Assembly (NCBI RefSeq): GCF_006738645.1
Contig: NZ_AP019700.1
Span: 942,001-1,006,000 of the forward strand
DNA length: 64,000 bases
Origin: Stella humosa
GTDB taxonomy: Bacteria > Pseudomonadota > Alphaproteobacteria > ATCC43930 > Allostellaceae
Direction of reading: 5' to 3'
Of this stretch, positions 25,742 to 45,579 are shown piece after piece. Below the pieces are notes generated by a model. The model saw only the letters and a program-made list of their open reading frames with translations. It was not told the DNA's origin and did not search any database. The translations under genes were made by a program, and so were the position numbers. The stretch's first letter is position 1, and each line of letters starts with the position of its first letter.

Positions 25742-25748
25742 GCGGCGG

Positions 25749-25818: not shown

Positions 25819-25823
25819 GGCAC

Positions 25824-28792: not shown

Positions 28793-28815
28793 GTCCATCA
28801 AGGGGGGGCATCGCG

Positions 28816-29217
28816 ATGCGAGTGGAACCGAGAGAGCGGCCGATTGTGGCCGAGCCCGATGTGCTGGAGCGGGACCCGGCGGTGCAGGCGCTCGTCGTGC
28901 GGCTCTACCGCGACGAGGGGATGTCCGTCACCTCGGTGGCGGAGCGGGCAGGGCTGATGCGCGGCAAGGCGACCCGGGTCGCCAACGACCGGGTGCGGCG
29001 CATACTGGTGGCGGCGGGCGTGCCGCTGCGCGCGGTCGAGGTGCCGCGCTACGACGCGGCGGTGGCCGACGCGGTGCCGCGCCAGCTGGCGCCATGGCCG
29101 GCCGAGGCGCGATTCGACCAGGAGGTCGCGGACCGCGAGGCCGGCGTCTACGGGCGCGTGGCGCCGGCCGCGACGCATGTCGATCGCGCGTCGTCGGCGG
29201 CGTGGGCGGCACTGTGA
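28816..29217 (+). CDS. Phage HTH protein of the early operon
   Basis: 133 residues. DPAVQALVVRLYRDEGMSVTSVAERAGL followed by ATRVANDRVRRILVAAGVPLR reads as a resolvase-like or homeodomain-like helix-turn-helix, with the turn at the Met-Ser (quoted in two parts). It may set operon expression or mark an origin. It starts 23 bases after the methylase and ends in a GTGA overlap with the primase. Confidence 0.55.
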   Translation: MRVEPRERPIVAEPDVLERDPAVQALVVRLYRDEGMSVTSVAERAGLMRGKATRVANDRVRRILVAAGVPLRAVEVPRYDAAVADAVPRQLAPWPAEARFDQEVADREAGVYGRVAPAATHVDRASSAAWAAL

Positions 29218-30290
29218 CCGGCCTGGTGGACCTGGCCGCGCTGAAGGCGGCCGTGCCCCTCGACGGTCTGATCGGGCAGCGGGTGGCGCTCAAGCTGCGC
29301 CGCGCCGGGGAGTGGGTGGGCAAGTGCCCGTTCCACCAGGACAAGACGCCGTCCTTCAAGGTCGACGGCAAGGGCTTCTACAAGTGCTTCGGGTGCGACG
29401 CCAAGGGCGACCACCTGTCGTGGCTCCAGGCGATCGACGGGCTGGACTTCGCGGCCGCCGTGCGGGTGCTGGAGGAGATGGCGGGCGGGGCGGCACCCCG
29501 GATCGGTGCCTCTCGCCTGCCGCCGCCGCTGGCAGAACAGGCGGCCGAGCGGGTCGACGACGAGGCCAAGCGCCGGGCGATGGCGCTCGCCATCTGGCAC
29601 CAGGCGGTGCCGGCGGCGGGCACCCCCGTCGTCGCCTACCTGGCGGCGCGCGGGATCACCCTGCCGCCGCCGGACACGCTGCGCTTCCATCCCGGGCTGT
29701 GGAGTGCCGACGCCGGTTGCAGCTTGCCGGCGATGGTGGCGGCGATGGCGGGGCCGGACCGGCGGATCAACGCCGTCCACCGCACGTTCCTGCGGCCCGA
29801 TGGCAGCGGCAAGGCCGAGGTCGCCCGGCCCAAGATGATGCTGGGGCTGGCGGGCGGCTCGTCCATCCGCCTGGCGCCGATCGACCGGGAGACCGGCCTG
29901 CTGGGCGTGGCCGAGGGGATCGAGACGGCCCTCAGCGTGATGCAGCGGCCGGCCCTCGCGGGCCTGCCGGCGGGCATCCCGGTGTGGGCGGCGGGATCGC
30001 TGGGTGCCATCGCCGGCGCCGGCCTGCCGGGCGACCAGGGGCCGGCGCACCCGACCAAGCCCGGCGTCCGCCTGCCCTCGCACACGCCCGACCTCGGCCG
30101 GCCGGGCATCGTCCTGCCGCCCGAGGTGCGCCACGTCGTCATCCTCGCCGACGGCGACGGCGACCGGCCGTCCCAGGCCGCCCTGATCGAGCGGGCGATC
30201 CGCCGCTGGCAGCGCGGCGGGCGGCGGGTGACGGCGGTGTGGCCGGATGCCGGCGGGGACTTCAACGACATGCTGGGGAGGGATCCGTGA
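29214..30290 (+). CDS. Phage primase: CHC2 zinc finger plus Toprim domain
   Basis: 358 residues. An N-terminal DnaG-type zinc finger is shown by CPFHQDKTPSFKVDGKGFYKCFGC (Cys38, His41, Cys about 60 and 63; quoted as one motif across the hairpin). A Toprim fold follows with LGVAEGIETALSVMQ (catalytic Glu) and HVVILADGDGDRPSQ (Asp pair). It makes RNA primers, or regulates priming, for phage replication beside the D5-type helicase. The GTG start is inside the previous stop. Confidence 0.85.
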   Translation: MTGLVDLAALKAAVPLDGLIGQRVALKLRRAGEWVGKCPFHQDKTPSFKVDGKGFYKCFGCDAKGDHLSWLQAIDGLDFAAAVRVLEEMAGGAAPRIGASRLPPPLAEQAAERVDDEAKRRAMALAIWHQAVPAAGTPVVAYLAARGITLPPPDTLRFHPGLWSADAGCSLPAMVAAMAGPDRRINAVHRTFLRPDGSGKAEVARPKMMLGLAGGSSIRLAPIDRETGLLGVAEGIETALSVMQRPALAGLPAGIPVWAAGSLGAIAGAGLPGDQGPAHPTKPGVRLPSHTPDLGRPGIVLPPEVRHVVILADGDGDRPSQAALIERAIRRWQRGGRRVTAVWPDAGGDFNDMLGRDP

Positions 30291-30781
30291 ACCTGCGCAT
30301 CCTGAAGAAACTGTCGAGGCGCGCGGCCCCGCTGCTGCCCCATCTCACCGATCACCGGCAGCAGTTCCGGGCCGAGCGCGGGGAGAACTACACCGGCCTG
30401 CTGATCACGGCGCGCAAACACTTCGAGCGCACGCGATCCGTGCACGCTGAGGTCTGGCGCCAGAGAGAGTTCAAGACGCCGGCGCGGGATGGCAACGGCT
30501 GGATTTTTCACGCGCCACCCGACCACCCCCGAAAGGGGACGATCATGGTGGGCGCCATGAGCGGCGGAGAAGAGTCCGAGTGGTCGGAGGAAACGGCTTG
30601 GGAAGCGCTCCGTGAGATCGTGTTCTGGCACTACTGCGAATGGGATCCGGGCACCGATAATCTCGTTCCTCTACGCTGCCTGCGAAGCCCCTCAGACATC
30701 TTCCGCGCGGCTGACGAGATGCTCGTGGCTGGCGAAGTCAGCCGACTAGAATGGCTGGCGTCCCGCTCGCCGGCCACCTGA
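30287..30781 (+). CDS. Hypothetical protein between primase and helicase
   Basis: 164 residues with GGAGGG before its GTG start, which overlaps the primase stop. It is somewhat less GC-rich than its neighbours. It has a basic N-terminus and an acidic, tryptophan-rich C-terminal half (SEWSEETAWEALREIVFWHYCEW). No family is recognised. The lower GC suggests later acquisition within the module. Confidence 0.5.
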   Translation: MNLRILKKLSRRAAPLLPHLTDHRQQFRAERGENYTGLLITARKHFERTRSVHAEVWRQREFKTPARDGNGWIFHAPPDHPRKGTIMVGAMSGGEESEWSEETAWEALREIVFWHYCEWDPGTDNLVPLRCLRSPSDIFRAADEMLVAGEVSRLEWLASRSPAT

Positions 30782-30784
30782 CCC

Positions 30785-32293
30785 ATGTCCAGCGCTGGTC
30801 TGATGCCCGACGCCCGGCCGGCCGTCGGGACGCCCCCACCAACCCCGGCCGATGACCCGGCGCTGGATTGGCTGCTGGGCGGCCTGCCGCGCAACGACAT
30901 GGGAAATGCCGAGAGGGCCATCGGCCGATTCGGGCGGGACCTGATCTTCTGCCCCGAGATGGGGTGGCTCGCCTGGATCGGCACGCACTGGTCGCTGGAG
31001 CGCGGGACGCAACTGGCGAACCTGATCGTGCAGCGCACGGCCGAGCTCATCAATGCCGAGCTGGCAGCCCGGCAGGACCCGACGCGCTACCCGGCGGACG
31101 ATACCGTGTGGCCGGCGAAAGAGCAGGGTGCGCATCTCGCCTGGGCGGTGGCGACGGGGGACGTGCGACGGCTCAACGGCATGCTGCGGGTGATGGAGCA
31201 TCGGCTGACGATCGCGCCCAGGGCGCTCGATGCCGACGCCTGGATCCTGCCCGTCGCCAACGGCACGCTCGAGCTGCGGTCGACCGCGGCTTCGGCCGAT
31301 GGCGGCATCGCCTTTCGCGAGCACCGGCGCGACGACCTGACGACGCGGTCCGCCCCCGTCGCCTACGACCGGGAGGCGACCTGCCCCAAGACGATGGCGT
31401 GGCTGCAGCACATGCAGCCCGACCCGGAGATCCGCCTCTTCATGCAGCGGGCGGCGGGCTACGCCTTGACCGGCACCACGGGCGAGCAGTGCGCCTTCCT
31501 CTTCCTGGGCGAGGGGGCCAACGGCAAGTCGACCTTCGTCAACCTCATCCGCGGGGTGCTGGGCGACTATGCCGGCACGCTGCCGGTCGAGACGCTGCTG
31601 GAAGATGAACGCGGCCGCAGCGGCAGCCAAGCGGCGCCCGAGCTGTCGCGCCTGACCGGCGTGCGCGTGGTGTTCGCGGCCGAGCCCGAGAAGAAACGGC
31701 GGCTGTCGACGTCGGCCATCAAGAGCATGGCCTCGGGCGAGCCGATGCTCGTGCGCGAGCTGAACAAGCCGTTCTTCGAGCTCGACGTGCAATTCAAGGT
31801 GATCATGTCCTTCAACCGGCGGCCGCAGGTGCCGACCGAGGACGAGGGCATGTGGCGGCGCCTGCGCCTGGTGCCCTGGCCCGTCATCATCCCCAAGGAC
31901 GATCGCATCCCGGACCTCCATCTCCGCCTGCTGCGGGAGGAGGCGCCGGGCATCCTCAACTGGATGCTGGATGGGCTGCGGGTCTGGAAGGAGACGGGCC
32001 TGGCGGCACCCGAGGCAGTGCTGGCGGCCACCGACAGCTATCGCCAGGACCAGGACCCGATCGGCGAGTTCCTGGGCGATGTCACCATGGCGATGCCGTC
32101 CGCCTCGGTGACCGCGGCCGACCTCTACCGCGCCTATCAGCGCTGGTGCACCCGCAACGCCCAAGAGCCGCTGCACATGCGCACCTTCGGCCGCACGCTG
32201 GGCGATCGCGGCATCGTGCGGGGCAAGAGCTCCATCATCATCTACCGCGGCATCACGCTGCGGGCGGAATGGCAGCCGCCCTATGACGACTGA
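30785..32293 (+). CDS. Phage/plasmid primase-helicase, D5/P4 family (SF3 helicase)
   Basis: 502 residues. An N-terminal D5_N-like region (WLAWIGTHWSLERG) precedes the SF3 AAA+ helicase core: Walker A GEGANGKSTF at residues 242-251, Walker B region VRVVFAAEPE, sensor 1 FKVIMSFNRRP with the Asn, and an arginine-finger stretch MWRRLRLVPWP. A C-terminal winged-helix DNA-binding part (ADLYRAYQRWC) follows. It unwinds the phage origin. It lies four bases after the previous gene and ends the early rightward operon. Confidence 0.92.
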   Translation: MSSAGLMPDARPAVGTPPPTPADDPALDWLLGGLPRNDMGNAERAIGRFGRDLIFCPEMGWLAWIGTHWSLERGTQLANLIVQRTAELINAELAARQDPTRYPADDTVWPAKEQGAHLAWAVATGDVRRLNGMLRVMEHRLTIAPRALDADAWILPVANGTLELRSTAASADGGIAFREHRRDDLTTRSAPVAYDREATCPKTMAWLQHMQPDPEIRLFMQRAAGYALTGTTGEQCAFLFLGEGANGKSTFVNLIRGVLGDYAGTLPVETLLEDERGRSGSQAAPELSRLTGVRVVFAAEPEKKRRLSTSAIKSMASGEPMLVRELNKPFFELDVQFKVIMSFNRRPQVPTEDEGMWRRLRLVPWPVIIPKDDRIPDLHLRLLREEAPGILNWMLDGLRVWKETGLAAPEAVLAATDSYRQDQDPIGEFLGDVTMAMPSASVTAADLYRAYQRWCTRNAQEPLHMRTFGRTLGDRGIVRGKSSIIIYRGITLRAEWQPPYDD

Positions 32294-32340
32294 TCGCCGG
32301 GGCCGGGCCCTCCCCCGCGCCCCCTCCGGGCCGTAGGCCG

Positions 32341-32498
32341 CTCCCGTTTCCTCCCGTTCCTCCCGCGCCACTCCCCAACCAAGTCATTGATATTGCGACG
32401 AGGCGGGAGGAACGGGAGCAAGGGCGGAACCTCCCTACACATGAGGGGGGAGGGCGCGCGTAGCCCCTTCATCTGTCTTTCTTACTCCCGTTCCTCCC
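32341..32498. repeat. Repeated CTCCCGTTCCTCCC element downstream of the helicase gene
   Basis: In the 221-base gap after the helicase gene the element CTCCCGTTCCTCCC occurs at 32351-32364 and 32485-32498, as its complement GGGAGGAACGGGAG at 32405-32418, and once with an extra T overlapping the first copy (32341-32355). The second and third copies can pair as a long-loop hairpin. A short AT-rich stretch lies between (about 32380-32395). Repeats beside primase/helicase genes are typical of phage replication origins; a regulatory hairpin ahead of the next gene is the alternative. Confidence 0.6.
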
Positions 32499-32514
32499 AA
32501 AAAGGAGAAAAGCA

Positions 32515-33114
32515 GTGCAAGTTGAAAGGGTTAGGGCACGGGAGGAAGCGAAAGCGGTTCGTCCCGTTGGTCCCGTTGGTCCCGCGGCCGGTGTCCGGCG
32601 GGTGGGCGACGTCGAGGCGGTGCTGGCCTGGGCCTACCAGGAACAGCGGGTGACGTGGGTCGAGGCGCGGGCAGGCGGCGTCGGCGGCGGCGGCGACCCG
32701 TACTCGGCCTGCCGGGTCGATGGCGGCGGGCGGGCGTCCTGCCAACTGCACCCGGACGCCGAGGCGATCCACGATGCCGTGCTGCGGCTGCCGGACTGGC
32801 GGATGCGACTGGTAATCGCCCATTCCAAGGCCGGCACCCGGCCGCAGGTCTATGCCGGCAACCGCCCGCGGTGCGAGCCGGTGATCGTCGGCCAGTTCCG
32901 CGACGGGCGGCCGAGGATTGAGATCGAGTACGACAAGCGGCGCCATCCCATCTGGTGCGCCGTGCGCTACCGCGGCTTCGACGAGGACTATGCCGGCGAC
33001 CGCCGCGACTACCGCGAATGGCGCCTCGGCCTGATGGAGTTGCTGCCGGCGCTGGCCCGGCTCGCCACCTGGCGCGTCACCGGGCCAGCGGCGCCGGAAC
33101 GCCCGTGGGGCTAA
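32515..33114 (+). CDS. Phage hypothetical protein downstream of the origin-like repeats
   Basis: 199 residues from GTG, preceded by AAAGGAG at a spacing of about eight. The start encodes repeated VGPVGP from a CCCGTTGGT DNA repeat. The core (VLRLPDWRMRLVIAHSKAGTRPQVY, given as one stretch to the Tyr) and RPRIEIEYDKRRHPIWCAVRYRG suggest an alpha/beta domain. Comparable genes lie between helicase and terminase in related prophages; the role is unknown. Confidence 0.6.
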   Translation: MQVERVRAREEAKAVRPVGPVGPAAGVRRVGDVEAVLAWAYQEQRVTWVEARAGGVGGGGDPYSACRVDGGGRASCQLHPDAEAIHDAVLRLPDWRMRLVIAHSKAGTRPQVYAGNRPRCEPVIVGQFRDGRPRIEIEYDKRRHPIWCAVRYRGFDEDYAGDRRDYREWRLGLMELLPALARLATWRVTGPAAPERPWG

Positions 33115-33365
33115 GTCACGAATGCGCTTGACTTTGCGAAGTCAAGCCGCGAAGGTGGGTAAGATTTCGCGCTACCTGCGGCCGGGGACCACCATCCCCG
33201 GCCGCACGCGCGTCCGGCCCACCCATCGCCGGCCCCGGCCGACCGATGCCGCCACCCCCCATCCGGGTCCTTTCCGCGCCCCGCGCAACACGGGTGCCGG
33301 AGCCGCGGGTTTGCGCCAGTGTCGGGCTGAATAGTTGGGTTAAGCCGGGGTTAGGAGGTTAAGCG
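33115..33365. other. Non-coding gap before terminase with two hairpins and GGTTAA repeats
   Basis: GCTTGACTT-TGCG-AAGTCAAGC (33126-33147) is a 9-bp stem with a four-base loop. GCGGCCGGGGA and TCCCCGGCCGC (33178-33188, 33195-33205) make an 11-bp stem with a six-base loop. Next to the small-terminase start, GGTTAA or GGTTAG occurs at 33338, 33349, 33357 and 33371. A cos or pac region with terminase-binding repeats is expected at this place in lambdoid phages. No open gene is seen. Confidence 0.5.
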
Positions 33366-33980
33366 ATGCAGGTTAACCCCGCCGCGGCAGCGATGCCCCA
33401 GCCGGGGCCGCCGCGCATCGTCTCCAAGGCCGAGTACGCCCGCCACCGCGGCTGCTCGGCGCCCTACATCTCGAAGCTGATCCGCGACGAGAAGCTGACC
33501 CGTCCCGCACTCCTGCCCGACGGCCGCATCGACCGCGTGGTCGCCGACGCGCAGCTCCAGGCCCGGCGCGAGCGGGCGACCGACGAAGACCCGCTGCTCC
33601 AGCCGCCGCCCGCCGCCGTCCCGGCCGAGGATGCCGAGGCCGAGGGCGACGAAAGCCTTGTCGCCCTGCGCAAGGAAGTGGCCCGCGAACAGCGCCGCAA
33701 GCTCAAGCGCGAGAACGACGAGGCCGAGGGCCGCCTGGTCGACGCCGCCGCCGTCCGCCACCGCGAGGAAACCGCCGCCCGCATGACCCGGGACGCGCTC
33801 CGCCGCCTGCCGGCAAAGGTTTCCGGCCGCTTGGCGGTCGAGACGAACGAGACCGAGATCCGCGCCATCCTGCTGGTGGCGATCGACGAGCTGCTGGCGG
33901 ACGCCGCCGACGCCCACGCCCACGAGGCCGCGGCGAACGACGAGGACGACGGGGGAGGGGACGATGCTGGCATCCGCTAA
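33366..33980 (+). CDS. Terminase small subunit (Nu1-like)
   Basis: 204 residues with TAGGAGGTTAAGCG before the ATG. The N-terminal winged HTH (IVSKAEYARHRGCSAPYISKLI) is the DNA-binding part. A charged coiled coil (LRKEVAREQRRKLKRENDEAEG) and a C-terminal helical part for contact with the large subunit follow. It overlaps the large subunit by 17 bases. It recognises the packaging site on phage DNA. Confidence 0.82.
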   Translation: MQVNPAAAAMPQPGPPRIVSKAEYARHRGCSAPYISKLIRDEKLTRPALLPDGRIDRVVADAQLQARRERATDEDPLLQPPPAAVPAEDAEAEGDESLVALRKEVAREQRRKLKRENDEAEGRLVDAAAVRHREETAARMTRDALRRLPAKVSGRLAVETNETEIRAILLVAIDELLADAADAHAHEAAANDEDDGGGDDAGIR

Positions 33981-35946
33981 GTCCACCGTCCACGTCGCCT
34001 GGTCGCGCGGCCTGCGCCCGGACCCGATCGTCACCGTCGCCGAATGGGCCGAGCAGCACCGCCGCATTCCGGAGGAGACCTCGCCCATCCCCGGCCGCTG
34101 GCGCAACGCGACGACGCCCTACCTGGTCGAGCCGATGCGCCTGGCCTCGCCCAGCCACCCGGCCCGCCGCGTCACCCTGATCAAGTCCGCCCAGATCGGC
34201 GGTAGCGAGCTCATCACCAACTTCCTCGGCACCGTCATCGACACCGCCCCCGGCCCGACGCTGGTGGTGCATCCCACGGTCGAGGCCGGCAAGGACTGGA
34301 CGGCCGAGAAGTTCGACGCCGCCATCCAGGCGACCCGCCGCCTGCGCGATCGCGTCGCCGACGGCAACAGCCGCGACAGCCGCGGCTCGACCATGAAGCG
34401 CAAGCGCTTCCCCGGCGGCTTCATCATCGTGACCGGGGCGAACAGCACACGGGCGCTCCGCCAGCGCTCCATCCGCTACGTCGTGAAGGACGATTGGTCG
34501 GACTGGCCGCAGGATGTCGACGGCCAGGGCGACCCGGACAAGATGGCCGACGCCCGCCAGATCGCCTACGAGGACACCGGCACGGCCAAGTCCGTGCAGG
34601 TCTCGACGCCCACCGTGAAGGGCGCCTGCCGCGTCACCAAGGCGTGGGAGGCCTCCGACCAGCGTCGCTACCTGGTGCCCTGCCCGCACTGCGGCTGGCG
34701 CCAGCACCTGCGCTTCCGCCCCGACACCGAGGGCCGCGGCGGCCTGCGCTTCGACCCCACGCCCCCCTTCCAGGCCCGCTACGCCTGCGAGGATTGCGGC
34801 TCGCTCATCGACCACCACGAGAAGCGCCAGATGCTGGCGAAGGGCGCCTGGCTCGCCACCAGCCCCGGCCCCGGCCGCCAGCCCGGCTTCGCCCTGAACG
34901 CCCTCTATTCGCCCTTCGTGTCGTGGGACAAGGTCGCCGAGGAGTTCGTGGCCGCCCGCGACGATCCCCACCTGCTGAAGACGTTCGTCAACTTGTGGCT
35001 GGGCGAAGCCTGGGAAGAAAAGGGCGACGCGCCGGAGTGGGAGGGGCTGAAGAAGCGGGCCGAGGACTACCCGATCGGCATCCTGCCGGTGGGCGCCGCC
35101 CTCGTCACCATCGGCATCGACGTGCAGAAGCGCGGCCTTTACTTCGAGGTGGTGGCCTGGGGGCCGGGCAAGACGAGCTGGTCGATCGACTTCGGCTACA
35201 TCGAGGGCGACACCGACGAGGACCCCTCGACGGGCGCCGTCTGGGCAGCACTGGACGAGGTCTACCAGCGCACCTGGCCGACCGCCGGCGGCAACCGCAT
35301 CGGCTGCGACATGCTGGCGATCGATGCCGGCTACGCCACCCAGCAGGTCTATTCCTGGGCCCGCGCCCGGCCGCGGGTCATGGCGGTGAAGGGCACCGAC
35401 GGCTGGGACCGCGCCGTGCTCGGCCAAGCGACGCCGCAGATGGTGAACTACCGCGGCAAGAAGATCGCCAAGGGCGTCCTGCTGTGGCCCGTCTACACCT
35501 GGAACCTGAAGTCCGAATTCTACGCCCAGCTCCGCAAGCCCGGCCCGGCACCGGGTGCCGAGGAATGGCCGGCCGGCTACTGCCACTATTCGACCCTGCA
35601 CCCGGACGGCTTCTTCCAGCAGCAGACCGCCGAAAGCCTGATCGAGCGCGAGGTGAAGGGCCGCCTGAAGCAGGAATGGAAGGTCTCAGGCGACAACCAC
35701 TATCTCGACGCCCGCATCTACGCCATGGCCGCCTTCCACCGCGCGGCCCGCCGCCTCGGCGTCCTCTACAACGACCTGGCGGTGTGGGCCGCCCTGATCG
35801 AAATGCGCGGCAGCGTCCGCCCGCCCCAGGCCGAACTGCCGCTCGACGGTGCCGCCCCGGCCGGCGCCCCGCCGCGCGTCTCGGCCCCCGTCCCGGCGCG
35901 GCCGAGCCCGCGCCGCATCATCCAGTCCAGCTACGTCGGAGGGTAG
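33964..35946 (+). CDS. Terminase large subunit (GpA family)
   Basis: 660 residues, lambda GpA type. The N-terminal ATPase has the variant Walker A TLIKSAQIGGSELI and the downstream RYVVKDDWSDWPQDV acidic motif. A zinc-finger-like pair CPHCGWRQH and CEDCGSLID lies near residues 240-285. The nuclease domain follows with GIDVQKRGLYFEVV and LAIDAGYATQQVY. A proline/alanine-rich C-terminus would bind the portal. It packages DNA from concatemers and makes the ends, so the virion DNA probably has cohesive ends. Confidence 0.93.
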   Translation: MLASAKSTVHVAWSRGLRPDPIVTVAEWAEQHRRIPEETSPIPGRWRNATTPYLVEPMRLASPSHPARRVTLIKSAQIGGSELITNFLGTVIDTAPGPTLVVHPTVEAGKDWTAEKFDAAIQATRRLRDRVADGNSRDSRGSTMKRKRFPGGFIIVTGANSTRALRQRSIRYVVKDDWSDWPQDVDGQGDPDKMADARQIAYEDTGTAKSVQVSTPTVKGACRVTKAWEASDQRRYLVPCPHCGWRQHLRFRPDTEGRGGLRFDPTPPFQARYACEDCGSLIDHHEKRQMLAKGAWLATSPGPGRQPGFALNALYSPFVSWDKVAEEFVAARDDPHLLKTFVNLWLGEAWEEKGDAPEWEGLKKRAEDYPIGILPVGAALVTIGIDVQKRGLYFEVVAWGPGKTSWSIDFGYIEGDTDEDPSTGAVWAALDEVYQRTWPTAGGNRIGCDMLAIDAGYATQQVYSWARARPRVMAVKGTDGWDRAVLGQATPQMVNYRGKKIAKGVLLWPVYTWNLKSEFYAQLRKPGPAPGAEEWPAGYCHYSTLHPDGFFQQQTAESLIEREVKGRLKQEWKVSGDNHYLDARIYAMAAFHRAARRLGVLYNDLAVWAALIEMRGSVRPPQAELPLDGAAPAGAPPRVSAPVPARPSPRRIIQSSYVGG

Positions 35947-35951
35947 GGGCC

Positions 35952-36161
35952 ATGGCCTGGACGCAAGCCCAGCTCGACGAGCTGAAAGCCGCCTACGCCT
36001 CCGGCGTCATGCGCATCCGCCATGAGGATCGCTGGGTCGAGTACCGCTCGGGTGCGGAGATGGAGCGGGCGATCGCGCGAATCGAGGCAGAGTTGGCGGG
36101 TGCGTCCGGCACCCTGCGGGTCCGCCAATATCGGCTCTATCAGGACGGGAAGGGACTATAA
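35952..36161 (+). CDS. Head-tail joining protein, gpW family
   Basis: 69 residues, the size of lambda gpW, with LDELKAAYASGVMRIRHEDRWVEYRSGAEMERAI (motif quoted to the Ile), the gpW helix-beta-hairpin-helix pattern. It stabilises packaged heads and lets the tail connector attach. It lies five bases after the large terminase. Its last six bases overlap, tail to tail, the end of the EVE-DUF3883 gene on the other strand. Confidence 0.85.
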   Translation: MAWTQAQLDELKAAYASGVMRIRHEDRWVEYRSGAEMERAIARIEAELAGASGTLRVRQYRLYQDGKGL

Positions 36162-37457
36162 TCCGAATGCATCTGCGTCCGGCGGACCCGGCTGGTGTTC
36201 TGGTCCGGGTATGCAGGTCGGGTCGGCGCGGTAGAGTATCGGGCTTAGGTTCAGCGCGGACTCGAGTGGTCCGCTAAGTTGATACATTCTTGGCGCCTTG
36301 CCGAAGTTGAAGAGGCGGAACAGCCTGTAGGTACCTTCGAGTTCGGCCGCAGTACGAAGCTCGTGGGCTGTCAGGTAAAACGGCGTGTTAATATTCTGTA
36401 GCGTCGTCTTCACCTCGATCCTGAGCGGTTGGCCCTCGTTGCTGAACGAAGATATGTCGTAGCCTGCGCCATCGCCGTCCAGCTCTGACACCCAGCGAAC
36501 GCGTGCGGCAAGGTCTGGTCGTCCGGCTGCCCGCAGGCGCTGTTGCTCGACTTCGAGGATGTATTTTTCACCGGCACGACCCAAAGTCCGGTTCATAGCC
36601 TCGCGCTGGGCGAGCGTCCCTGGTGCAGCAGTTCTGGTGTTTCCGCGAGTGGGGCTACGGGGCGGCAGTTGGGGCGGCGGCACGATCAGTTCGTCGAACG
36701 ACAGCAACTTGGGCTGTGGTACCTCGTCCACGGCGCCAATCGGAGACAATCCGGCGAGCGCCTCCAGGAGCAGGACGGTCAACGACTGCTGGTAGTGCGC
36801 TGATGGTAGATACCCGCGTATCCACGGCAGACCCCGTTCCGAAAGTATTGCTGAGATGTTCTGGTGTTTGCGCTCTATCGCGCCTTCCGGTCGGGCAATC
36901 GTACCAGCGAGTGCAAGGCGATATTCGGTCTTGGAGTAGCTCTCGCCGGCGAGCTCTTTACGCAGCATCTGAAGGTAGCTGTCGATCGCGGCATTCATTT
37001 CGGCTGGCGTCCAATCACCGCTACCGCCAAGGTCGGTAGTCTGTGTCGTGGCCAGCAATGCGTCCAATGCTTCTGCCTGGTCGTCGCTTAGGGTAAAGCC
37101 GCTCGCCTGCGCAGCGATTTGCTCCGGTCGGAGAACGTCGCCGATCTGTTCGCGCGTCAACAGGGTGGTCTGGCAGGGATCGACGAAGCGACTGAAGCGG
37201 ACGTTCACCATCATCGGCCCCGTTCCGGCCGGGAGGGTTGGATCGCGGTAGGGTTCCCCAACCACGGTGCCGACACCGAAAATTCCGTTGTTTCCGCCTT
37301 GCCGCAGCAAAAATGCCCGCTGGCCGTCAAATGCTTGGCGGAACGCTTGGATACGCCACGGCTCAACGAGTTCGCCGGATTTGAAGTCGCGGACCATGCG
37401 CCTGACATCGTCGTAAGGCCAGCCGCGTTGGGTCCAGGTGAGCAGGAGGGCGGTCAT
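36156..37457 (-). CDS. EVE-DUF3883 protein, candidate modification-dependent restriction nuclease
   Basis: 433 residues in three parts. Residues 1-125 look like an EVE/PUA-type domain (TALLLTWTQRGWPYDDVRRM, AFLLRQGGNNGIFGVGTVVG), which reads modified bases. Residues 148-225 (DWTPAEMNAAIDSYLQML, ERKHQNISAILSERGLPWI) are a module also seen in HNH-type restriction proteins. Residues 290-433 are DUF3883, with a PD-(D/E)XK-like core: Asp334 in GAGYDIS, then Glu348-x-Lys350 in LRIEVKTT. GGAG lies six bases before the ATG. It is opposite in strand to the head genes around it and less GC-rich, so it was added as cargo. Action against competing phages with modified DNA is inferred. Confidence 0.75.
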   Translation of the reverse strand: MTALLLTWTQRGWPYDDVRRMVRDFKSGELVEPWRIQAFRQAFDGQRAFLLRQGGNNGIFGVGTVVGEPYRDPTLPAGTGPMMVNVRFSRFVDPCQTTLLTREQIGDVLRPEQIAAQASGFTLSDDQAEALDALLATTQTTDLGGSGDWTPAEMNAAIDSYLQMLRKELAGESYSKTEYRLALAGTIARPEGAIERKHQNISAILSERGLPWIRGYLPSAHYQQSLTVLLLEALAGLSPIGAVDEVPQPKLLSFDELIVPPPQLPPRSPTRGNTRTAAPGTLAQREAMNRTLGRAGEKYILEVEQQRLRAAGRPDLAARVRWVSELDGDGAGYDISSFSNEGQPLRIEVKTTLQNINTPFYLTAHELRTAAELEGTYRLFRLFNFGKAPRMYQLSGPLESALNLSPILYRADPTCIPGPEHQPGPPDADAFGL

Positions 37458-37544
37458 GGAAACTCCGAAAGCCAGCGATCGCCGAAACGGCACCGCGTTG
37501 CCGGCATGGCCACCAATTGAACTGGAAGCAGGGGGGCGAACGCA

Positions 37545-39077
37545 ATGGTAGCAGTTACCGATGCAGCGAAACCCCGCATCCGCGTCGCCGCGGGCGATCT
37601 GTCGGGCGCCTCGGCGCGCCTCGTCGTCCGCAACCAGGCCTACGAGGGCGCCCAGTCGTCGCGCCGTCTGCGCTCCTGGACGGCGACCTCGGCCCACGTC
37701 AACGCCCTGCTGGCCAACGCCGGTCCGACCCTGCGCAACCGCCTGCGCCAGATGGTGCGGTCCAACCCCTACCTGCGCCGCGGCCGCGCCTCCTACCGCT
37801 CGAATCTGATCGGCACCGGCATCATGCCGTCGCCCGGCCTGGCCGACGACCCGAAGCGCCGCGCCCGCCTGCGCCGCGCCTGGTCGCGCTGGATCAGGAA
37901 GGCCGACCATGACGGCCGGATGGATTTCTACGGCATCCAGCGCCTGGTGGTGGGCGCGATCTTCACCGCCGGAGAGTGCTTCGTCCGCCTGGTCTACCTG
38001 TCGGCGGCCGAGGCGCGCCGGTCGGGCATGGAGATCCCGATGCGCCTCCAGGTGCTGCGGGCCGAGATGGTGCCGCTCGACAAGACCGAGGCCCTGGCCA
38101 ACGGCAACTGCATCCGCTGCGGCATCGAGTTCGACCCGGCCGGCCGTCGCGTCGCCTACTGGGTCTACCGGCGTGACCCGACCGACGCCACGCTGCCGGC
38201 CGGCTTCGAGCTGTTCTCGCGTGTCCCGGCCGAGGAGATGATCCACGTCTTCGACGCCGAGGAGCCGGGCCAGATCCGGGGCGAGCCGCCGCCCGTCGCC
38301 GCCATGGTGAAGGCGTTCGTGCTGGACCGCTACGACGATGCCGAGCTCGACCGCAAGGCGACCACGGCGCTCTTCGCCGGCTTCATCACCGAGGCCGACA
38401 CCGGCGACGGCGCCCTGCCGAACGAGGGTGCCGACGAGAACGGCGTGGCCATCGCCGGCATGCAGCCCGGCACCCTGCAGAAGCTGCTGCCGGGCGAGGA
38501 CATCAAGTTCGCCGAGCCGTCCGAGGTCGGCGGCAGCTACGAGGCCTTCCAGTACCGCACCCTGCTGGCGATCGCCGCCGGCCTGGGCCTGCCCTACGCC
38601 GCCGTCACCGGTGACGTCACCAAGGTCAACTATTCGTCCCAGCGCGCCGCCCTGGTCGAGTTCCGGCGGGAGGCCGAGCAGCTCCAGTTCGCGGTCTACG
38701 TCTTCCTGCTGTGTCAGCCGGTGTGGGACGCCTGGCTCGCCCAGGGTGTGCTGTCCGGCGCGCTCGAGTTCACCCAGCGGCAGCTCGCCGACCGCGAGCC
38801 CTGGGAGGTCGAATGGATCCCGCGCAAGTGGGACTGGGTCGACCCGCTGAAGGACCGCCAGGCCGAGAAGCTCGCCGTCGACAACCTCTTCAAGCCCCGC
38901 TCCTTCGTCATCGCCGACGAGGGCTACGACCCGGAAGAGGTCGACCAGCGCATCGCCGAGGACCAGGAGCGCGCCGATCGCCTCGGCCTGCGCGCGGTGC
39001 AGTTGCCCGGTGCCGCCGCCGGTTCGCCGGTCAAGGGCGAGGACGACGACGAAAAGGGTGCGCGGGAGGCGGCCTAG
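37545..39077 (+). CDS. Phage portal protein, lambda gpB family
   Basis: 510 residues, usual for the family: ARLVVRNQAYEGAQSSRRLRSW at the start, NPYLRRGRASYRSNLIGTGI, and the core AGLGLPYAAVTGDVTKVNYSSQRAALVEFRRE (quoted as the family signature in two pieces at the Val-Asn). It forms the dodecameric channel at the head vertex for DNA entry and exit. The acidic C-terminus ends in an ATGA-like overlap, on opposite strands, with the YdjM-like gene. Confidence 0.92.
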   Translation: MVAVTDAAKPRIRVAAGDLSGASARLVVRNQAYEGAQSSRRLRSWTATSAHVNALLANAGPTLRNRLRQMVRSNPYLRRGRASYRSNLIGTGIMPSPGLADDPKRRARLRRAWSRWIRKADHDGRMDFYGIQRLVVGAIFTAGECFVRLVYLSAAEARRSGMEIPMRLQVLRAEMVPLDKTEALANGNCIRCGIEFDPAGRRVAYWVYRRDPTDATLPAGFELFSRVPAEEMIHVFDAEEPGQIRGEPPPVAAMVKAFVLDRYDDAELDRKATTALFAGFITEADTGDGALPNEGADENGVAIAGMQPGTLQKLLPGEDIKFAEPSEVGGSYEAFQYRTLLAIAAGLGLPYAAVTGDVTKVNYSSQRAALVEFRREAEQLQFAVYVFLLCQPVWDAWLAQGVLSGALEFTQRQLADREPWEVEWIPRKWDWVDPLKDRQAEKLAVDNLFKPRSFVIADEGYDPEEVDQRIAEDQERADRLGLRAVQLPGAAAGSPVKGEDDDEKGAREAA

Positions 39078-39640
39078 CGGGCTTCCCGGTCACGCGCTTC
39101 CGCCGTTGCCGATCGACGCTGGCGGGCCATCCACCACTCGAAGGCAAAGGCGAGCACGAAGACGACAAGGAAGGCCAGGAACGCCATCCCTTTGCGCTCG
39201 TGCAGCGTGGCGTAGGCCGCCGCCAGGCCGAAGGATAGGAGCCCGAAGATCCCGGTCGCGTGCCGCAGCTTCAACCCCTGCATGGCGTGCAGCGAACAGA
39301 CCATTGCGACCCCGGAGTTGGCCGCGATCCACATCGGCGACAGCGGGCCGAGCGAAGCCTTGATCGGCCAGGGCAGCCACACCGTGCCGAAGCCCTTGGC
39401 TGGCGACAGGATGTCGGCCGCCAGGTGGATCGAGACGCCGACCAGGAACCCGGCCGCCCCCGCCCGCACCGCCTCGTTGCGCGCCAGGAGGAAGGGCAGG
39501 GGGATCAGCACGCTGTGCGTGACGATCGAGCGATGGTGCAGCCAGGACAGGAACAGGTGGTCGATGTCCGGGAAGCCCAGCCCGAGCGTCGCGAACAGGA
39601 TCATCACGACGATTTCGCGCCAGGTCCTGTCGTCGTCCAT
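39074..39640 (-). CDS. YdjM/DUF457-like membrane-bound metal-dependent hydrolase (cargo)
   Basis: 188 residues with about four hydrophobic segments. The metal-binding pattern of the family is present: FPDIDHLFLSWLHHRSIVTHS, with Asp-x-Asp-His, His-Arg and Thr-His-Ser, then GVSIHLAADILSP. The family includes the LexA-regulated inner-membrane protein YdjM. It is opposite in strand to the head genes, lies exactly between portal and protease, and overlaps the portal stop by four bases. It would act in the inner membrane of the lysogen; lipid or undecaprenyl substrates are a guess. Confidence 0.8.
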   Translation of the reverse strand: MDDDRTWREIVVMILFATLGLGFPDIDHLFLSWLHHRSIVTHSVLIPLPFLLARNEAVRAGAAGFLVGVSIHLAADILSPAKGFGTVWLPWPIKASLGPLSPMWIAANSGVAMVCSLHAMQGLKLRHATGIFGLLSFGLAAAYATLHERKGMAFLAFLVVFVLAFAFEWWMARQRRSATAEARDREAR

Positions 39641-39743
39641 TTCCGCCCCCGCCCGGCTCCATGCCGGCCCGTCCATGTAGGTCCGGGGCGCGACCTTATC
39701 GGGGAAATCCCGAGCCCGAAATAGCCCGTTGAGGGATGCCGAC

Positions 39744-40805
39744 ATGCCCGACGCCCACCGGACCGACCTGCCCATGCAGGTGCGGGCGGCCACGCTCGCC
39801 CTCACCACCGCCAATGCCGAGGCGCGTACGATCGAGCTGGTCTGGTCGACCGGCGCCCGCGTCCGCCGCTTCGACTATTGGCGCGAGCGCTACTTCGACG
39901 AGGAACTGGTGCTGGAGACGGGCGCGGTCGACCTGGCCCGCCTGAACGGCGGCGCCAACCTGCTCGACTGTCACGGCCGCTGGCAGCTTTCCAGCATCCT
40001 GGGCGTCGTCGAGCGCGCCTGGCTGGCGACCGGCGCCGACGGCAAGCCCGAGGGCCGCGCCGTCGTCCGCTTCTCCGACCGCGCCGAGGTGGCGGCGATC
40101 TGGCGGGACGTCCAGGCCGGCATCATCCGCAACGTGTCGGTCGGCTACATGGTCCGGGCGTTCGAGATGGTCGAGCGCCAGGGCGAGGTGCCGCTCTACC
40201 GCGCCATCGACTGGGAGCCGGGCGAGATCAGCCTGGTGCCCGTCGGCGCCGACCCGGGGGCAGGGACCCGGTCGGCCGGCGAGGGCGGGTCCGACCTTCA
40301 GCGTGACCCGGGCCCGCAACGCTACCCCTGCCGATTCATCGACCCGATCACCCGCAACGAGGAAACCGACATGACCAAGCCGACCCCGGCGGGCGATCCC
40401 GCCGGCAAGCCCGACCCTGCGGCCCAGCCGCGCAGCGAAGCCCAGAACGCGCCGGTTGTCGACACCCGTGCCGCACCCCCGGCCACTCCGCCGGCGCCGC
40501 CAGCCCCCACCAACGTCGTCGACCTCGACGGCGCCCGCGCCCAGGGCCGGGCCGATGCGCTGGCCTACGTCTCGGAGGTCAACGAGCTCTGCGCGCTCGC
40601 CGGCTCGGAGCGCTCGGCCGAGTTCATCGCCGCCGGCACCCCGGTGGCGGCCGTCCGCAAGGCGTTGCTGGAGGCGCGCGCCGCCGACAGTGCCGCCCGC
40701 GGCATCGTCGGCGCCCATGCCGGCACCACCACCGCCCCCGCTGGTCGCGGCTGGGGCGACGCGCTGGCGCGGGCCGGCGTCGCCCGTCCCAACCCCAAGA
40801 GCTGA
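39744..40805 (+). CDS. Prohead protease (U35/HK97-like) with C-terminal scaffold part
   Basis: 353 residues. Residues 15-185 form the serine protease, with His77 in NLLDCHGRW and Ser132 in IRNVSVGYMV, and WEPGEISLVPVGADPGAG closing the domain. Residues 210-353 are a Pro/Ala-rich linker and a helical scaffold (VVDLDGARAQGRADALAYV). It matures the prohead and removes scaffold. GAGGGA precedes ATG 39744. An in-frame ATG at 40371 has its own ribosome site and probably makes scaffold alone. A decoration gene follows 14 bases later. Confidence 0.85.
   Translation: MPDAHRTDLPMQVRAATLALTTANAEARTIELVWSTGARVRRFDYWRERYFDEELVLETGAVDLARLNGGANLLDCHGRWQLSSILGVVERAWLATGADGKPEGRAVVRFSDRAEVAAIWRDVQAGIIRNVSVGYMVRAFEMVERQGEVPLYRAIDWEPGEISLVPVGADPGAGTRSAGEGGSDLQRDPGPQRYPCRFIDPITRNEETDMTKPTPAGDPAGKPDPAAQPRSEAQNAPVVDTRAAPPATPPAPPAPTNVVDLDGARAQGRADALAYVSEVNELCALAGSERSAEFIAAGTPVAAVRKALLEARAADSAARGIVGAHAGTTTAPAGRGWGDALARAGVARPNPKS
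40371..40805 (+). CDS. Nested scaffold protein from an internal start (lambda Nu3-like)
   Basis: 144 residues in the same frame as the protease. The ATG at 40371 (MTKPTPAGDPAGKP) follows GAGGAAA at a spacing of five, and it coincides with the end of the protease domain and the start of the linker. Lambda makes its Nu3 scaffold in just this way from the C gene. Separate production in excess of the protease is therefore predicted. Not proven without protein evidence. Confidence 0.55.
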   Translation: MTKPTPAGDPAGKPDPAAQPRSEAQNAPVVDTRAAPPATPPAPPAPTNVVDLDGARAQGRADALAYVSEVNELCALAGSERSAEFIAAGTPVAAVRKALLEARAADSAARGIVGAHAGTTTAPAGRGWGDALARAGVARPNPKS

Positions 40806-40819
40806 AGGAGGGCCGATCC

Positions 40820-41194
40820 ATGGCAGTCCTCACCGAAACCCGCCACGCCGGCGGCTTCATGGTCTCCGAGGCGAACGGCTTCCGCTCGCGCGAGACCGTC
40901 ACCGTGCTGTCCGGCCAGGTGCTCCAGGCCGGCACCGTGCTGGGCCGGATCACGGCCAGCGGCAAGTACGTCGCCTGGGAGGCCTCGACCTCCGCCGAGG
41001 CCGATGGCTCCACCACCGTGCGCGCCATCCTCTACGGCCCGGTGGATGCGACCGCCGGCGACACCAAGGGCGTCATCGTCATCCGCGACGCGGAGGTGAA
41101 CGGCGGCGAGCTGGTCTACCCCGCCGGCACCCAGCCGCAGGAAAAGGCAGTCGCCATCGCGGCGCTGCTCGCCCTCGGCATCATCGTGCGCTGA
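40820..41194 (+). CDS. Head decoration protein, lambda gpD family
   Basis: 124 residues: AGGFMVSEANGFRSRETVTVL, SGQVLQAGTVLGRITAS and a beta-rich middle, with NGGELVYPAG near the end, match gpD-type trimeric decoration proteins that cap the expanded capsid. GGAGGG is at good spacing from the ATG. It lies between scaffold and capsid as in lambda and would be one of the most abundant virion proteins. Confidence 0.88.
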   Translation: MAVLTETRHAGGFMVSEANGFRSRETVTVLSGQVLQAGTVLGRITASGKYVAWEASTSAEADGSTTVRAILYGPVDATAGDTKGVIVIRDAEVNGGELVYPAGTQPQEKAVAIAALLALGIIVR

Positions 41195-41207
41195 GGAGGC
41201 GCGTCCC

Positions 41208-42221
41208 ATGGCAACCTTGAACGTCTTCCAGGACGACGCCTTCTCGGCGATCGAGCTCACCGACGGCCTCGAGCGGGTCGACTACCAGCCCCAGCTGCTG
41301 GGCCAGCTCGGCATCTTCCAGCCCCGGCCGATCCGCACGGCCACGGCGATGGTGGAGCAGCGCGACGGCGTGCTGGCGCTGATCCAGACCAGCCCCCGCG
41401 GCGCCCCGCCCGCCCAGCGCACCACGGAGTTGCGCGAGGCCCGCGCCTTCCCGACCTGGCGCATCGCCAAGGCCGACCGGATCATGGCTGACGAGCTCCA
41501 GTCGATCCGCGCCTTCGGCTCCGAGACCGAGCTGATGGGCGTGCAGGCCGAGGTGGCGCGCCGCAGCGCCCGCCTGCGCGGCGATGTCGAACTGACCTTC
41601 GAGAACATGCGCCTGGGGGCCGTCCAGGGCATCGTCATCGACGCCGATGGCAGCACCAAGGCCAACTGGTTCACCGAGTTCGGGATCGCCCAGCCGGCCG
41701 AGATCGACTTCGCGCTGAACGTCGCCACCACCGACGTTCGGGCAAAGTGCCACGCCGTGGTGCGGGCGATGGAGCGGGCATCGAAGGGGGCGATGACGAC
41801 GAGCAGTAGCGTCCACGCCCTGGCGGCCGACGATTTCTACGACGCGCTGATCGGCCACGCCCTGGTGCGGGATACCTACCTCAACTGGTCGGCGGCCCAG
41901 GATGCCCGCCAGAACCTCGCCTTCCGCTCGTTCACCTTCGGCGGCATCGTCTGGCACAACTACCGTGGCACCGACGACAACTCGACGGTCGCCATCCCGG
42001 CCGGCAAGGCCAAGTTCTTCCCGGTCGGTGCGCCCGGCGTCTTCCAGCACATCCGCTCGCCGATGGAGAGCACGGAGTTCGTGAATACCCCCGGCCGGGA
42101 GGTCTACTACCGGACCGTCCCCGACCGCGACCGCGACATGTGGGTCGATGTCGAGGCCTACGCCTACCCGCTCTTCATCTGTACCCGGCCCGGGCTGCTG
42201 ATGCGGGCGAAGAAGCAGTGA
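41208..42221 (+). CDS. Major capsid protein, lambda gpE family
   Basis: 337 residues. The start NVFQDDAFSAIELTDGLERV and the later FRSFTFGGIVWHNYRG and GREVYYRTVPDRDRDMWVDVEAYAYPLFICTRP (quoted in two parts at Asp-Met) are the family hallmarks. It folds as an HK97-type subunit and makes the capsid shell. Its stop overlaps the GTG start of the first gene of the glycosylation-like cassette (GTGA), tying that cassette to capsid translation. Confidence 0.93.
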   Translation: MATLNVFQDDAFSAIELTDGLERVDYQPQLLGQLGIFQPRPIRTATAMVEQRDGVLALIQTSPRGAPPAQRTTELREARAFPTWRIAKADRIMADELQSIRAFGSETELMGVQAEVARRSARLRGDVELTFENMRLGAVQGIVIDADGSTKANWFTEFGIAQPAEIDFALNVATTDVRAKCHAVVRAMERASKGAMTTSSSVHALAADDFYDALIGHALVRDTYLNWSAAQDARQNLAFRSFTFGGIVWHNYRGTDDNSTVAIPAGKAKFFPVGAPGVFQHIRSPMESTEFVNTPGREVYYRTVPDRDRDMWVDVEAYAYPLFICTRPGLLMRAKKQ

Positions 42222-42871
42222 CGACGCGCCAGGCGCCCGTGCCGGCAGACGCACCCGACCGGGTGCCCTGCTGCTGGCCGGGCGCCAGCGTCTACATCCT
42301 GGGCGGCGGCCCCTCGCTCGACCTGGTGCCGCTTGGCGGGCTGGTGCTGGCCCGCGTCATCGCCGTGAACGACAGTGCCTGGGCGGCCCCCTGGGCGCCC
42401 GTCCTGCACTACGGCGATGATCGCTGGGCACGCTGGCACGGCGCCGCTCTGGCCCGCCACGCCGCCTGGATGCAGTCGACCGTCGCCCGCGACCCGGCCG
42501 TCGCCCCGCCGCACGCCTGGCGCCTGCGCTATGCCGGCCGCGAGGGGTTGAGCCGCGACCCCGAGGCGCTCAATGGGCGCTGCTCGGGCCACCAGGCGAT
42601 CAACCTGGCCGTCCTGCTGGGTGCCGCCCGCATCGTCCTGCTGGGCTTCGACCATCGCGTGGTGGCCGGTCCTGATGGAGGGTGCCGCACCCATCACCGT
42701 TGGACCCGGCCGCGCCCGATCGAGACCCCGCCCGAAGCCTGGGACCCGTGGATCGTCGAAGCGCGCTCGATCCGCGCCGACCTGCCGCCTGGCGTCGAGA
42801 TACTCAACGCCACCCCGGGCTCCGCGCTCGATGCCTTCCCGATCGTCGATCTGGAATCGGTGCTGCCATGA
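42218..42871 (+). CDS. Maf/DUF115-like protein, first gene of capsid-linked cassette
   Basis: 217 residues. SVYILGGGPSLDLVPLGGLV is the glycine/proline-serine motif of the DUF115 (MptE-like, Maf) fold, and SGHQAINLAVLLGAARIVLLGFDH is its second nucleotide-binding strand pair (motif quoted to the His). In Maf proteins this fold transfers nonulosonic sugars to flagellin. Here it is translationally coupled to the major capsid gene in front (GTGA) and to the next gene behind (ATGA). Sugar transfer to a virion protein is an inference from family and place. Confidence 0.65.
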   Translation: MTTRQAPVPADAPDRVPCCWPGASVYILGGGPSLDLVPLGGLVLARVIAVNDSAWAAPWAPVLHYGDDRWARWHGAALARHAAWMQSTVARDPAVAPPHAWRLRYAGREGLSRDPEALNGRCSGHQAINLAVLLGAARIVLLGFDHRVVAGPDGGCRTHHRWTRPRPIETPPEAWDPWIVEARSIRADLPPGVEILNATPGSALDAFPIVDLESVLP

Positions 42872-43656
42872 CGCCGCGCGCCTTCCTCCTCATCCGCCAC
42901 CGCTCGGCGGCCCGTTTCGCCGCCTTCCACGCCGGCCTGTCCGCCGCCGGCTTCGCCGTCTACGAGGATTGGCACGGCGAACGGCCCCAGCCCGGCGACG
43001 TGCTGGTCATCTGGAACCGTGTCGGCGGCTGGGCCGAGGCCGCCGACACGTTCGAGGCGGCCGGCGCCACGGTACTGGTGGCCGAGAACGGCCATGTCCC
43101 GATCCGTGGTGCTGCCGCCGTGTCGCTGGCGATCGGCGGCCACAACGGCGCCGGCAGCTTCCCGGTCGGCGGGCCGGAGCGCTGGGCCGGCTTCGGCGTG
43201 ACCCTCGCCCCCTGGTCGAGCGGCGGCCGCCACATCCTGGTCTGCGGCCAGCGGGGCATCGGCAGCGGTGCCCACGCCGTGCCCCCCGGCTGGCTCGACG
43301 ATGCCTGCGCCCGCCTGCGCGCCCTGACCGACCGTGCGGTGCGCCGCCGCCCGCACCCGCGCTCGGCCGAGGGTGCGGCGATGCCGCCGCTCGCCCACGA
43401 CCTGCGCGACTGCTGGTGCGTCGTCACCTGGTCGAGCAATGCCGCGACCGAGGCCCTGCTGGCCGGCCTCCCCGCTATCGTCTGCGGCCCGGCCCACATT
43501 CTGGCGGCCGTCTGCAACCGCCACCTGGAGGATGCGGTGGAGCCCGTGCGCCGCCTGCGGGAGCCCGCCTTCGAACGGCTCGCCTGGTCGCAGTGGACGC
43601 TCGACGAGATCGCGTCCGGCGAGCCCTTCGCCCGCCTGGCCGGAGGCTGCCCGTGA
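42868..43656 (+). CDS. Glycosyltransferase-like protein, copy A of a paralogous pair
   Basis: 262 residues. It shares with the next gene the ordered blocks LAPWSSGGRHILVCGQ, DLRDCWCVVTWSSNAATEALLAGLPAIV and QWTLDEIASGEPFARL (each quoted alone). The Trp-Ser-Ser-Asn-Ala-Ala-Thr-Glu-Ala block resembles the donor-binding part of GT-B glycosyltransferases and of capsular polysaccharide transfer proteins. The N-terminal half (GDVLVIWNRVGGWAEAADTFEAAG) is Rossmann-like. It is coupled at both ends. The acceptor and donor are unknown. Confidence 0.6.
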   Translation: MTPRAFLLIRHRSAARFAAFHAGLSAAGFAVYEDWHGERPQPGDVLVIWNRVGGWAEAADTFEAAGATVLVAENGHVPIRGAAAVSLAIGGHNGAGSFPVGGPERWAGFGVTLAPWSSGGRHILVCGQRGIGSGAHAVPPGWLDDACARLRALTDRAVRRRPHPRSAEGAAMPPLAHDLRDCWCVVTWSSNAATEALLAGLPAIVCGPAHILAAVCNRHLEDAVEPVRRLREPAFERLAWSQWTLDEIASGEPFARLAGGCP

Positions 43657-44435: not shown

Positions 44436-44436
44436 A

Positions 44437-45240: not shown

Positions 45241-45242
45241 CG

Positions 45243-45578: not shown

Positions 45579-45579
45579 A

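Follow-up and report, generated by a model that had tools for sequence, protein, structure and literature searches.

A lambda-like prophage of Stella humosa carries a putative modification-dependent endonuclease that joins an EVE-like domain to a DUF3883 nuclease

What is a nuclease-like protein of several parts doing among the head genes of a prophage, encoded in the opposite orientation to them? This question is raised by a 64,000-nucleotide stretch of the Stella humosa genome (contig NZ_AP019700.1, positions 942,001 to 1,006,000; hereafter the window, in which coordinates are given unless a locus number precedes them). The host is now named Allostella humosa at NCBI. A first-pass annotation had proposed that the open reading frame (ORF) at 36156-37457 encodes a possibly new modification-dependent restriction factor, in which an EVE-type reader, a middle module and a DUF3883 nuclease share one chain. 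This proposal is partly supported by the architecture, by the nuclease residues and by relatives that carry other modification readers. We consider it fairly probable that the protein is a modification-dependent restriction endonuclease, similar to type IV enzymes and contained in one chain, and that its gene is cargo of a temperate lambda-like phage. Its parts are as follows.

36156..37457, minus strand: 433-residue protein with an EVE-like domain, a homeodomain-like module and a PD-(D/E)XK nuclease (ORF, profile and model evidence)
37023..37457, minus strand: residues 1-145, EVE-like (PUA-type) putative modification reader (sub-cut-off Pfam match, hhalign, shuffles, model)
36768..37022, minus strand: residues 146-230, middle module with a predicted three-helix homeodomain-like fold, putatively DNA-binding (structural match; HNH nuclease after it in four relatives)
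36219..36614, minus strand: residues about 282-413, DUF3883/NOV_C nuclease domain with E297, D334, E348 and K350 (Pfam, conservation, fold)

By profile match, the core of the protein is a member of an existing candidate defence family, PDC-S36. The PADLOC model (PDLC05008) aligns with residues 147-413 at E 4e-87 (290.5 bits, model positions 5-279 of 280). PDC names derive from a paper on PADLOC candidates (Payne et al. 2024). Within the core, Pfam NOV_C (DUF3883, PF13020) matches residues 296-393 at E 2.8e-19, with 69.4 bits against a gathering cut-off of 22.1. It is the only Pfam family above its cut-off in the protein, HNH being absent; searches of NCBIfam and PHROGs with the 433-residue protein returned nothing. 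E297, D334 and K350 are invariant among 36 aligned sequences and E348 is conserved in at least 90% of them, an Asp standing in its place in one relative (L047; retrieved loci and genomes bear L and G numbers). This bears out the DUF3883 domain with a D334, E348-x-K350 core that had been read from the sequence.

The predicted fold agrees with the motif. AlphaFold2, run on the 36-sequence alignment, is confident for residues about 150-230 and 290-400. The nuclease model matches the SPARDA nuclease (9qcc; Z 9.0, root-mean-square deviation (rmsd) 4.1 over 108), Hjc (2wcw; Z 8.4, rmsd 2.5 over 94) and a BisI-family domain (8q5o; Z 7.4, rmsd 2.7 over 96), all within residues 282-409. The nuclease domain thus has the D...(E/D)xK motif and, by prediction, the PD-(D/E)XK fold. 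DUF3883 is listed as “a novel REase domain” in the table of a paper on HEPN domains (PMC3710099), and a survey of Archaea presumably counts it among type II endonucleases (PMC10609329); papers are cited by PubMed Central (PMC) number.

The middle module resembles the homeodomain 3lnq (Z 7.0, rmsd 1.8 over 58), and a Z of about 7 for a small helical bundle may merely reflect a common arrangement. As the first-pass annotation had claimed, the module also stands before HNH nucleases, in four loci (L296, L297, L298 and L299; HNH recognized by eye from CxxC and HH motifs). Several weak matches were set aside: SCO1/SenC (E 0.044) and FAM186A (E 0.26) in Pfam, both sub-threshold; CD6, the sole result of a phmmer search of the whole protein against PDB sequences (E 0.51); and DASH SPC34 (3e-4) and a large toxin (0.12), found with the core profile in the PDB and taken as chance.

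Four tests that make no use of an EVE-seeded model point to an EVE-type N-terminus. In hhalign, the N-terminus aligns with a profile of 22 EVE proteins over residues 40-108 (probability 90.6, E 1.3e-6 for one comparison). Against the EVE profile the real sequence scores 16.9 bits, and the best shuffled version 6.8 (3348 scored of 5000). A search of 385 genomes of the class with residues 1-145 alone, at a loose threshold, led to 29 fetched loci besides the window's own (L170-L198), nine of which encode typical EVE proteins by their sequence pattern; in at least five cases (G016, G032, G068, G095, G102) a weak hit coincides in place and strand with an independently found Pfam-EVE gene. The matches in the remaining 20 loci, which lack such a protein, were taken as chance. 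Lastly, only two matches to Pfam EVE appear in the host genome at E≤0.5: a canonical EVE gene and the 433-residue gene (E 0.085). A phmmer search of residues 1-145 found no match among PDB sequences, and two plasmid matches at E 10 were dismissed as chance.

A model of the N-terminus built on an alignment of EVE proteins has a mean predicted local distance difference test (pLDDT) score of 77.5 and a predicted template modelling (pTM) score of 0.74. Its seven best structural matches are EVE structures: 2ar1 (Z 11.1), 2gbs (10.4), 1zce (10.3), 2g2x (10.2), 2eve (10.1), 5j3e (9.8) and 3eop (9.7). One of these, 5j3e, is THYN1 with DNA containing 5-methylcytosine (5mC). The same model matches YTH domains with Z up to 9.6, ASCH domains up to 9.3 and VcaM4I (6yex) at 8.7.

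The core is widespread, and what precedes it varies. A genome scan yielded at least 541 stretches, and counts “of 80” below refer to the best 80 of these. The core occurs in 35 of the 385 class genomes and in 50 viral loci, the host's own being included in each count. Among plasmids, 1201 of 72,556 records match at E 1e-5, in no case across 80% of the query, and the matches listed begin at residue 148 or 149; of the 50,697 records in a phage collection, 6 have a match, which is confined to the nuclease part. A scan of genome contigs with the single protein found no relative, whereas the alignment-based scan did recover relatives.

A real N-terminal addition, as judged by eye, is present in three of the best 80 genome loci (L041, L044 and L061). 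In Pseudomaricurvus alcaniphilus (L044, 7524-8831) it is a sulfur-binding domain (SBD), matching over residues 1-148, at E 2e-48, the solved phosphorothioate-binding domain SBDHga1 (8h0l). Six additions (L031, L061, L291, L293, L294 and L295), combined into a profile, match the ScoMcrA head (5zmm residues 11-91) at E 7.7e-14, and a plasmid protein found in L001 and L002 appears by eye to have a similar addition. By sequence, this ScoMcrA-head-like version occurs in other proteobacteria, a planctomycete and resistance plasmids. The 92-residue addition of L041 has no PDB sequence match, so that PDB sequence searches identified two of three kinds; Pfam found no domain in the additions of L001, L031, L041, L044 and L061. 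The PDC-S36 profile matches all five forms tested, fused and stand-alone.

Judged from these matches, a common module has changing partners on both sides, and two of the N-terminal kinds belong to known type IV enzymes. Because the same core carries an SBD or a ScoMcrA head in relatives, the N-terminus of the window protein looks like a swappable reader of DNA modifications. It is possible, and we propose it tentatively, that PDC-S36 is a general cutting unit that takes different modification readers, the lambda-like prophage having acquired an EVE version in its packaging operon for use against rival phages with modified DNA.

Which marks would be foreign in this host? No match to the C5-cytosine methyltransferase family PF00145 was found in the host genome, and the same search was positive in 10 of 14 control genomes. 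Thus, 5mC and 5-hydroxymethylcytosine (5hmC) would be non-self, which fits a 5mC/5hmC reader without proving one. The same does not necessarily hold for adenine marks: the host has two N6_N4 methyltransferase (PF01555) matches outside the window, the search being confined to these two families. The earlier suggestion that the prophage is spared because its DNA lacks the mark is compatible with this result.

In the mechanism that we propose, the EVE-like N-terminus would detect a modified base in DNA that enters the cell, the likeliest being cytosine modified at position 5; the homeodomain-like module would help to hold the DNA; and the DUF3883 PD-(D/E)XK domain would cut it. Host and prophage DNA would be spared in a host without that mark, and the gene would protect the lysogen, and hence the prophage, against phages with modified DNA. 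We infer the mark, the cleavage and the phage exclusion from the architecture. A putative reader and a nuclease lie in one chain, and no methyltransferase gene adjoins it, as would suit a type IV enzyme. If this is right, a widespread and unexplained candidate defence family gains a mechanism and a direct test. Furthermore, an unusual pairing of reader and nuclease would join the modification-dependent enzymes, a class that is also of use in mapping marks on DNA, and a bacterial prophage would be seen to carry such an enzyme.

Several observations weigh against this reading. Pfam EVE (PF01878) gives 12.7 bits on the whole protein and 15.3 on residues 1-145, below its gathering cut-off of 23, which is why we call the domain EVE-like. 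The EVE fold match is not independent, since EVE proteins made up the alignment behind the model; with that alignment left out, the block of residues 1-140 has pLDDT 32-61, and Foldseek with the full model returns nothing at E≤0.001. The first-pass claim of an EVE domain was right in kind, by hhalign, shuffles and the weak-hit search, and weaker by Pfam. No base-binding pocket was assigned in the protein. At E≤0.001 the N-terminus is found in one of the 385 class genomes, its own, and it has no match in phage or plasmid records at E 0.1; being unique in the collections searched, it offers no basis for judging its conservation. By the same reading by eye, the proteins of the other 77 of the best 80 loci begin close to the core or follow an open frame unlike a gene; with readers missing from most relatives, the core can evidently serve in another role. 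No promoter-like site was found for the gene.

The phylogeny of the core adds a further reservation. In a tree of 49 cores (near-copies removed), a branch supported at 97/98 has on one side all nine N-terminally extended rows, the window's included, with four stand-alone rows, and on the other 36 stand-alone rows, Stella sp. ATCC 35155 among them. The window row is itself a long branch (1.61), and the approximately unbiased (AU) test does not reject a tree in which it is constrained to group with the 36 stand-alone rows (p 0.374). We thus dropped the view that the window core clearly groups with extended relatives: the tree draws this grouping and the AU test leaves the alternative.

We weighed four other explanations. 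The same reader-nuclease could be directed at another base, a bulky hypermodified base or modified RNA. The YTH domains that the N-terminal model resembles are readers of N6-methyladenine (m6A), ASCH domains come close behind them, and other EVE domains might bind modified adenine (PMC7641849). However, all seven EVE structures outrank the first YTH domain, some by less than 1 in Z, and a plain m6A reader could risk self-attack in a host with two N6_N4 methyltransferase matches; we regard this explanation as unlikely. Quite unlikely, too, is a sequence-specific, restriction-like nuclease whose specificity would reside in the homeodomain-like module, with an EVE-like domain that is auxiliary or vestigial. 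The many relatives without a reader would suit it, as would certain neighbours of the core (methyltransferase and Vsr names, like the PIN, Phd, GuaA, DUF2924 and recombinase names below, were given by eye from sequences). A C5-methyltransferase-like gene lies 93 bp after the core in L046 (8897-10018). In L097 and L119 the core is directly adjoined by short ORFs that resemble methyltransferases, and L085 (9299-9712) and L097 (3457-3861) have Vsr-like genes no more than about 0.5 kb away from it. Such neighbours are nevertheless few: full C5-methyltransferase-like ORFs occur in 2 of 80 loci and Vsr-like genes in 4 of 80, within up to 8 kb and with adenine methyltransferases left out of the search. 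Moreover, the neighbours of the window gene are phage structural genes.

It is decidedly improbable that the nuclease senses phage takeover, possibly acting by abortive infection, in a manner comparable to PD-T4-1. The nuclease region does match the PADLOC models for PD-T4-1 (1.4e-12) and TmtA (5.4e-13), but the likeness is confined to the DUF3883 region, no similarity to PD-T4-1 being detected outside the nuclease domain, and both the EVE-type N-terminus and the modification readers of relatives weigh against this explanation. PD-T4-1 presumably originates from a defence screen in E. coli. That screen placed 12 of 21 systems in intact prophages and names PD-T4-10 and others (PMC9519451). Very improbable, finally, is a decaying or idle cargo gene with no present function. 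Its long branch, the lack of a promoter-like match and the lack of a second copy in IMG/VR beyond the same prophage would fit such a gene; against it, a frame of 433 codons has stayed open, all four nuclease residues are kept, and a GGAG stands upstream of the ATG (at 37457, minus strand) with 5 bases between.

How new is the proposed modification-dependent endonuclease? The PDC-S36 profile (280 positions) covers the core only, to which the window protein adds an EVE-like N-terminus of 145 residues that appears nowhere else in the collections searched. The nearest likeness in arrangement is VcaM4I, an EVE-HNH enzyme in which an EVE-type reader likewise precedes a nuclease in one chain (PMC7897488). 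Its nuclease is HNH, whereas the window protein ends in a NOV_C/PD-(D/E)XK domain, in place of the C-terminal HNH of EVE-HNH proteins, and has an extra homeodomain-like module. VcaM4I flips 5mC or 5hmC into a hydrophobic pocket (PMC7897488). This base-binding pocket comprises P24, W82 and Y130. When deprived of its EVE domain and linker, VcaM4I reportedly loses specificity. Phage T4gt carries hydroxymethylcytosine (hmC) without glucose. It was the phage used for VcaM4I (PMC7897488).

Putative type IV enzymes of EVE-PD(D/E)XK type (PMC7641849) have the general architecture in common with the window protein; the main text of that article, as available, does not name DUF3883 (0 occurrences) or mention an intervening homeodomain-like module, and the window protein has both. 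ScoMcrA- and SBD-type enzymes are represented among the relatives by a head-like domain or an SBD on the same core, although ScoMcrA itself is SBD-SRA-HNH (PMC7461809), unlike those relatives. HHPV4I of the archaeal virus HHPV4 is also a modification-dependent endonuclease of an integrating virus and was proposed to exclude other viruses; it differs in being SRA-wH-HNH and specific for Gm6ATC (PMC10101028). No description of EVE and DUF3883 in one protein, and no paper using the name PDC-S36, was found in the literature searched, a search outside which bioRxiv and most subscription journals fell and which is no proof of absence; the available excerpts of PMC10853773 and PMC12839542 do not name DUF3883. 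Thus, PDC-S36, proteins that fuse EVE to PD(D/E)XK and a modification-dependent enzyme encoded by a virus were already known, and “possibly new” applies to the combination. What is distinct here is a DUF3883 nuclease and homeodomain-like module behind an EVE-like domain, and a core that takes other readers.

The surroundings of the gene are those of a phage, as the following features indicate.

16947..62696: prophage, from IMG/VR contig UViG_2788499841_000001, converted to window coordinates
33964..35946, plus strand: terminase large subunit (phrog_15, E 6.1e-213)
35952..36161, plus strand: gpW-like head-tail joining protein of 69 residues (name from the first-pass annotation; similar ORFs adjoin the portal gene in 11 fetched relatives)
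36156..36161: 6-base overlap of two stop-codon ends, the TAG of the 433-residue gene (minus strand) and the TAA of gpW (plus strand)
37545..39077, plus strand: portal protein (phrog_21, E 3.4e-97)

PHROGs matches flanking the gene include small and large terminase, portal, head protease, decoration and major head proteins. The element is a lambda-like prophage that carries the 433-residue gene in its packaging region, head-on to gpW and portal. The sole full-length match in viral contigs is the 45.75-kb IMG/VR record of the same prophage. The inverted position between gpW and portal and the 6-base overlap were described correctly by the first-pass annotation, as was a GC content below that of the surroundings. 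GC is 60.9% in the gene against 70.6% in the window, and only 15 of 627 overlapping segments of equal length are lower; GC at third codon positions is 68.4%, against 94.6% in the terminase gene and 94.3% in the portal gene. The gene looks compositionally foreign.

We surveyed the gpW-portal site in 32 viral-contig loci fetched by terminase or portal, two of which are the window's own prophage. Both neighbours were found on one strand in 11 other loci; in another 19, either gpW or portal went undetected. The aligned segments of gpW and portal lie at most 185 bases apart in nine of the 11, which suggests that, in this small set, the site seldom holds an insert. The gap is 386 bases in L240 and 1780 in L237, compared with 1386 in the window. 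The site in L237 holds two inverted ORFs of 296 and 223 residues (4233-5787, minus strand) that look transposase-like by eye. Of three other genomes of the genus searched, two lack a match to the portal protein and the third has one of 27% identity, so no close copy of the prophage was seen in them.

Other genes of the prophage were noted in passing. At its edge, an ORF at 16949-18076 (minus strand) lies in a stretch of 46% GC and has sub-cut-off matches to H-type lectin and to a gp53-like tail fibre C-terminus. Another PUA-type domain, an ASCH match above its Pfam cut-off (26.4 against 21.2 bits), falls in the ORF at 19439-19921 (minus strand), which could be a chance frame of high-GC DNA. 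The ORF at 30785-32293 (plus strand) encodes a D5_N/DUF5906 primase-helicase-like protein.

Stand-alone versions of the core often have surroundings that resemble mobile cargo. A PIN gene is present in 12 of 80 loci; in 11 it lies directly upstream of the core with a Phd-like gene before it, forming a Phd-like antitoxin and PIN toxin pair (L043, L045, L049, L050, L051, L054, L060, L064, L068, L073 and L110). In three of these (L045, L064 and L110) guaA abuts the other side of the core, and guaA is within 100 bp of the core in 6 of 80 loci overall. A DUF2924-like gene occurs in 13 of 80. A tRNA-Ser gene lies 350-400 bp upstream of the core in 9 of 36 loci scanned (L065, L074, L083, L090, L092, L096, L102, L113 and L116), with a DUF2924-like gene opposite; in L092 a convergent serine-recombinase-like gene stands beside the DUF2924-like gene. 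The position of some cores at the edge of viral contigs had suggested gene-transfer-agent clusters, which is unsupported: in Rhodobacterales loci the core gene lies between tRNA-Ser and a serine-recombinase-like gene. From this gene order, the Rhodobacterales core gene is read as cargo at an integration edge.

A few single relatives deserve mention. One other genome of the genus (G003) has a core relative with two TAG stops in the matched stretch (L007) and a separate protein in which the middle module precedes a different C-terminus (L008). In Vibrio phage 10N.261.55.B9_PE003 (L309, 3089-4438), a protein with a DUF3427 note and a DUF3883-like end is encoded between repressor and integrase genes. 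On plasmids of Escherichia and Acinetobacter, a 378-residue relative (L001 4704-5840, L002 4704-5840 and L310 2704-3840), with a PDC-S36 core and, in the two read, a ScoMcrA-head-like N-terminus, is encoded 1.5 kb from the resistance gene aac(3)-IId.

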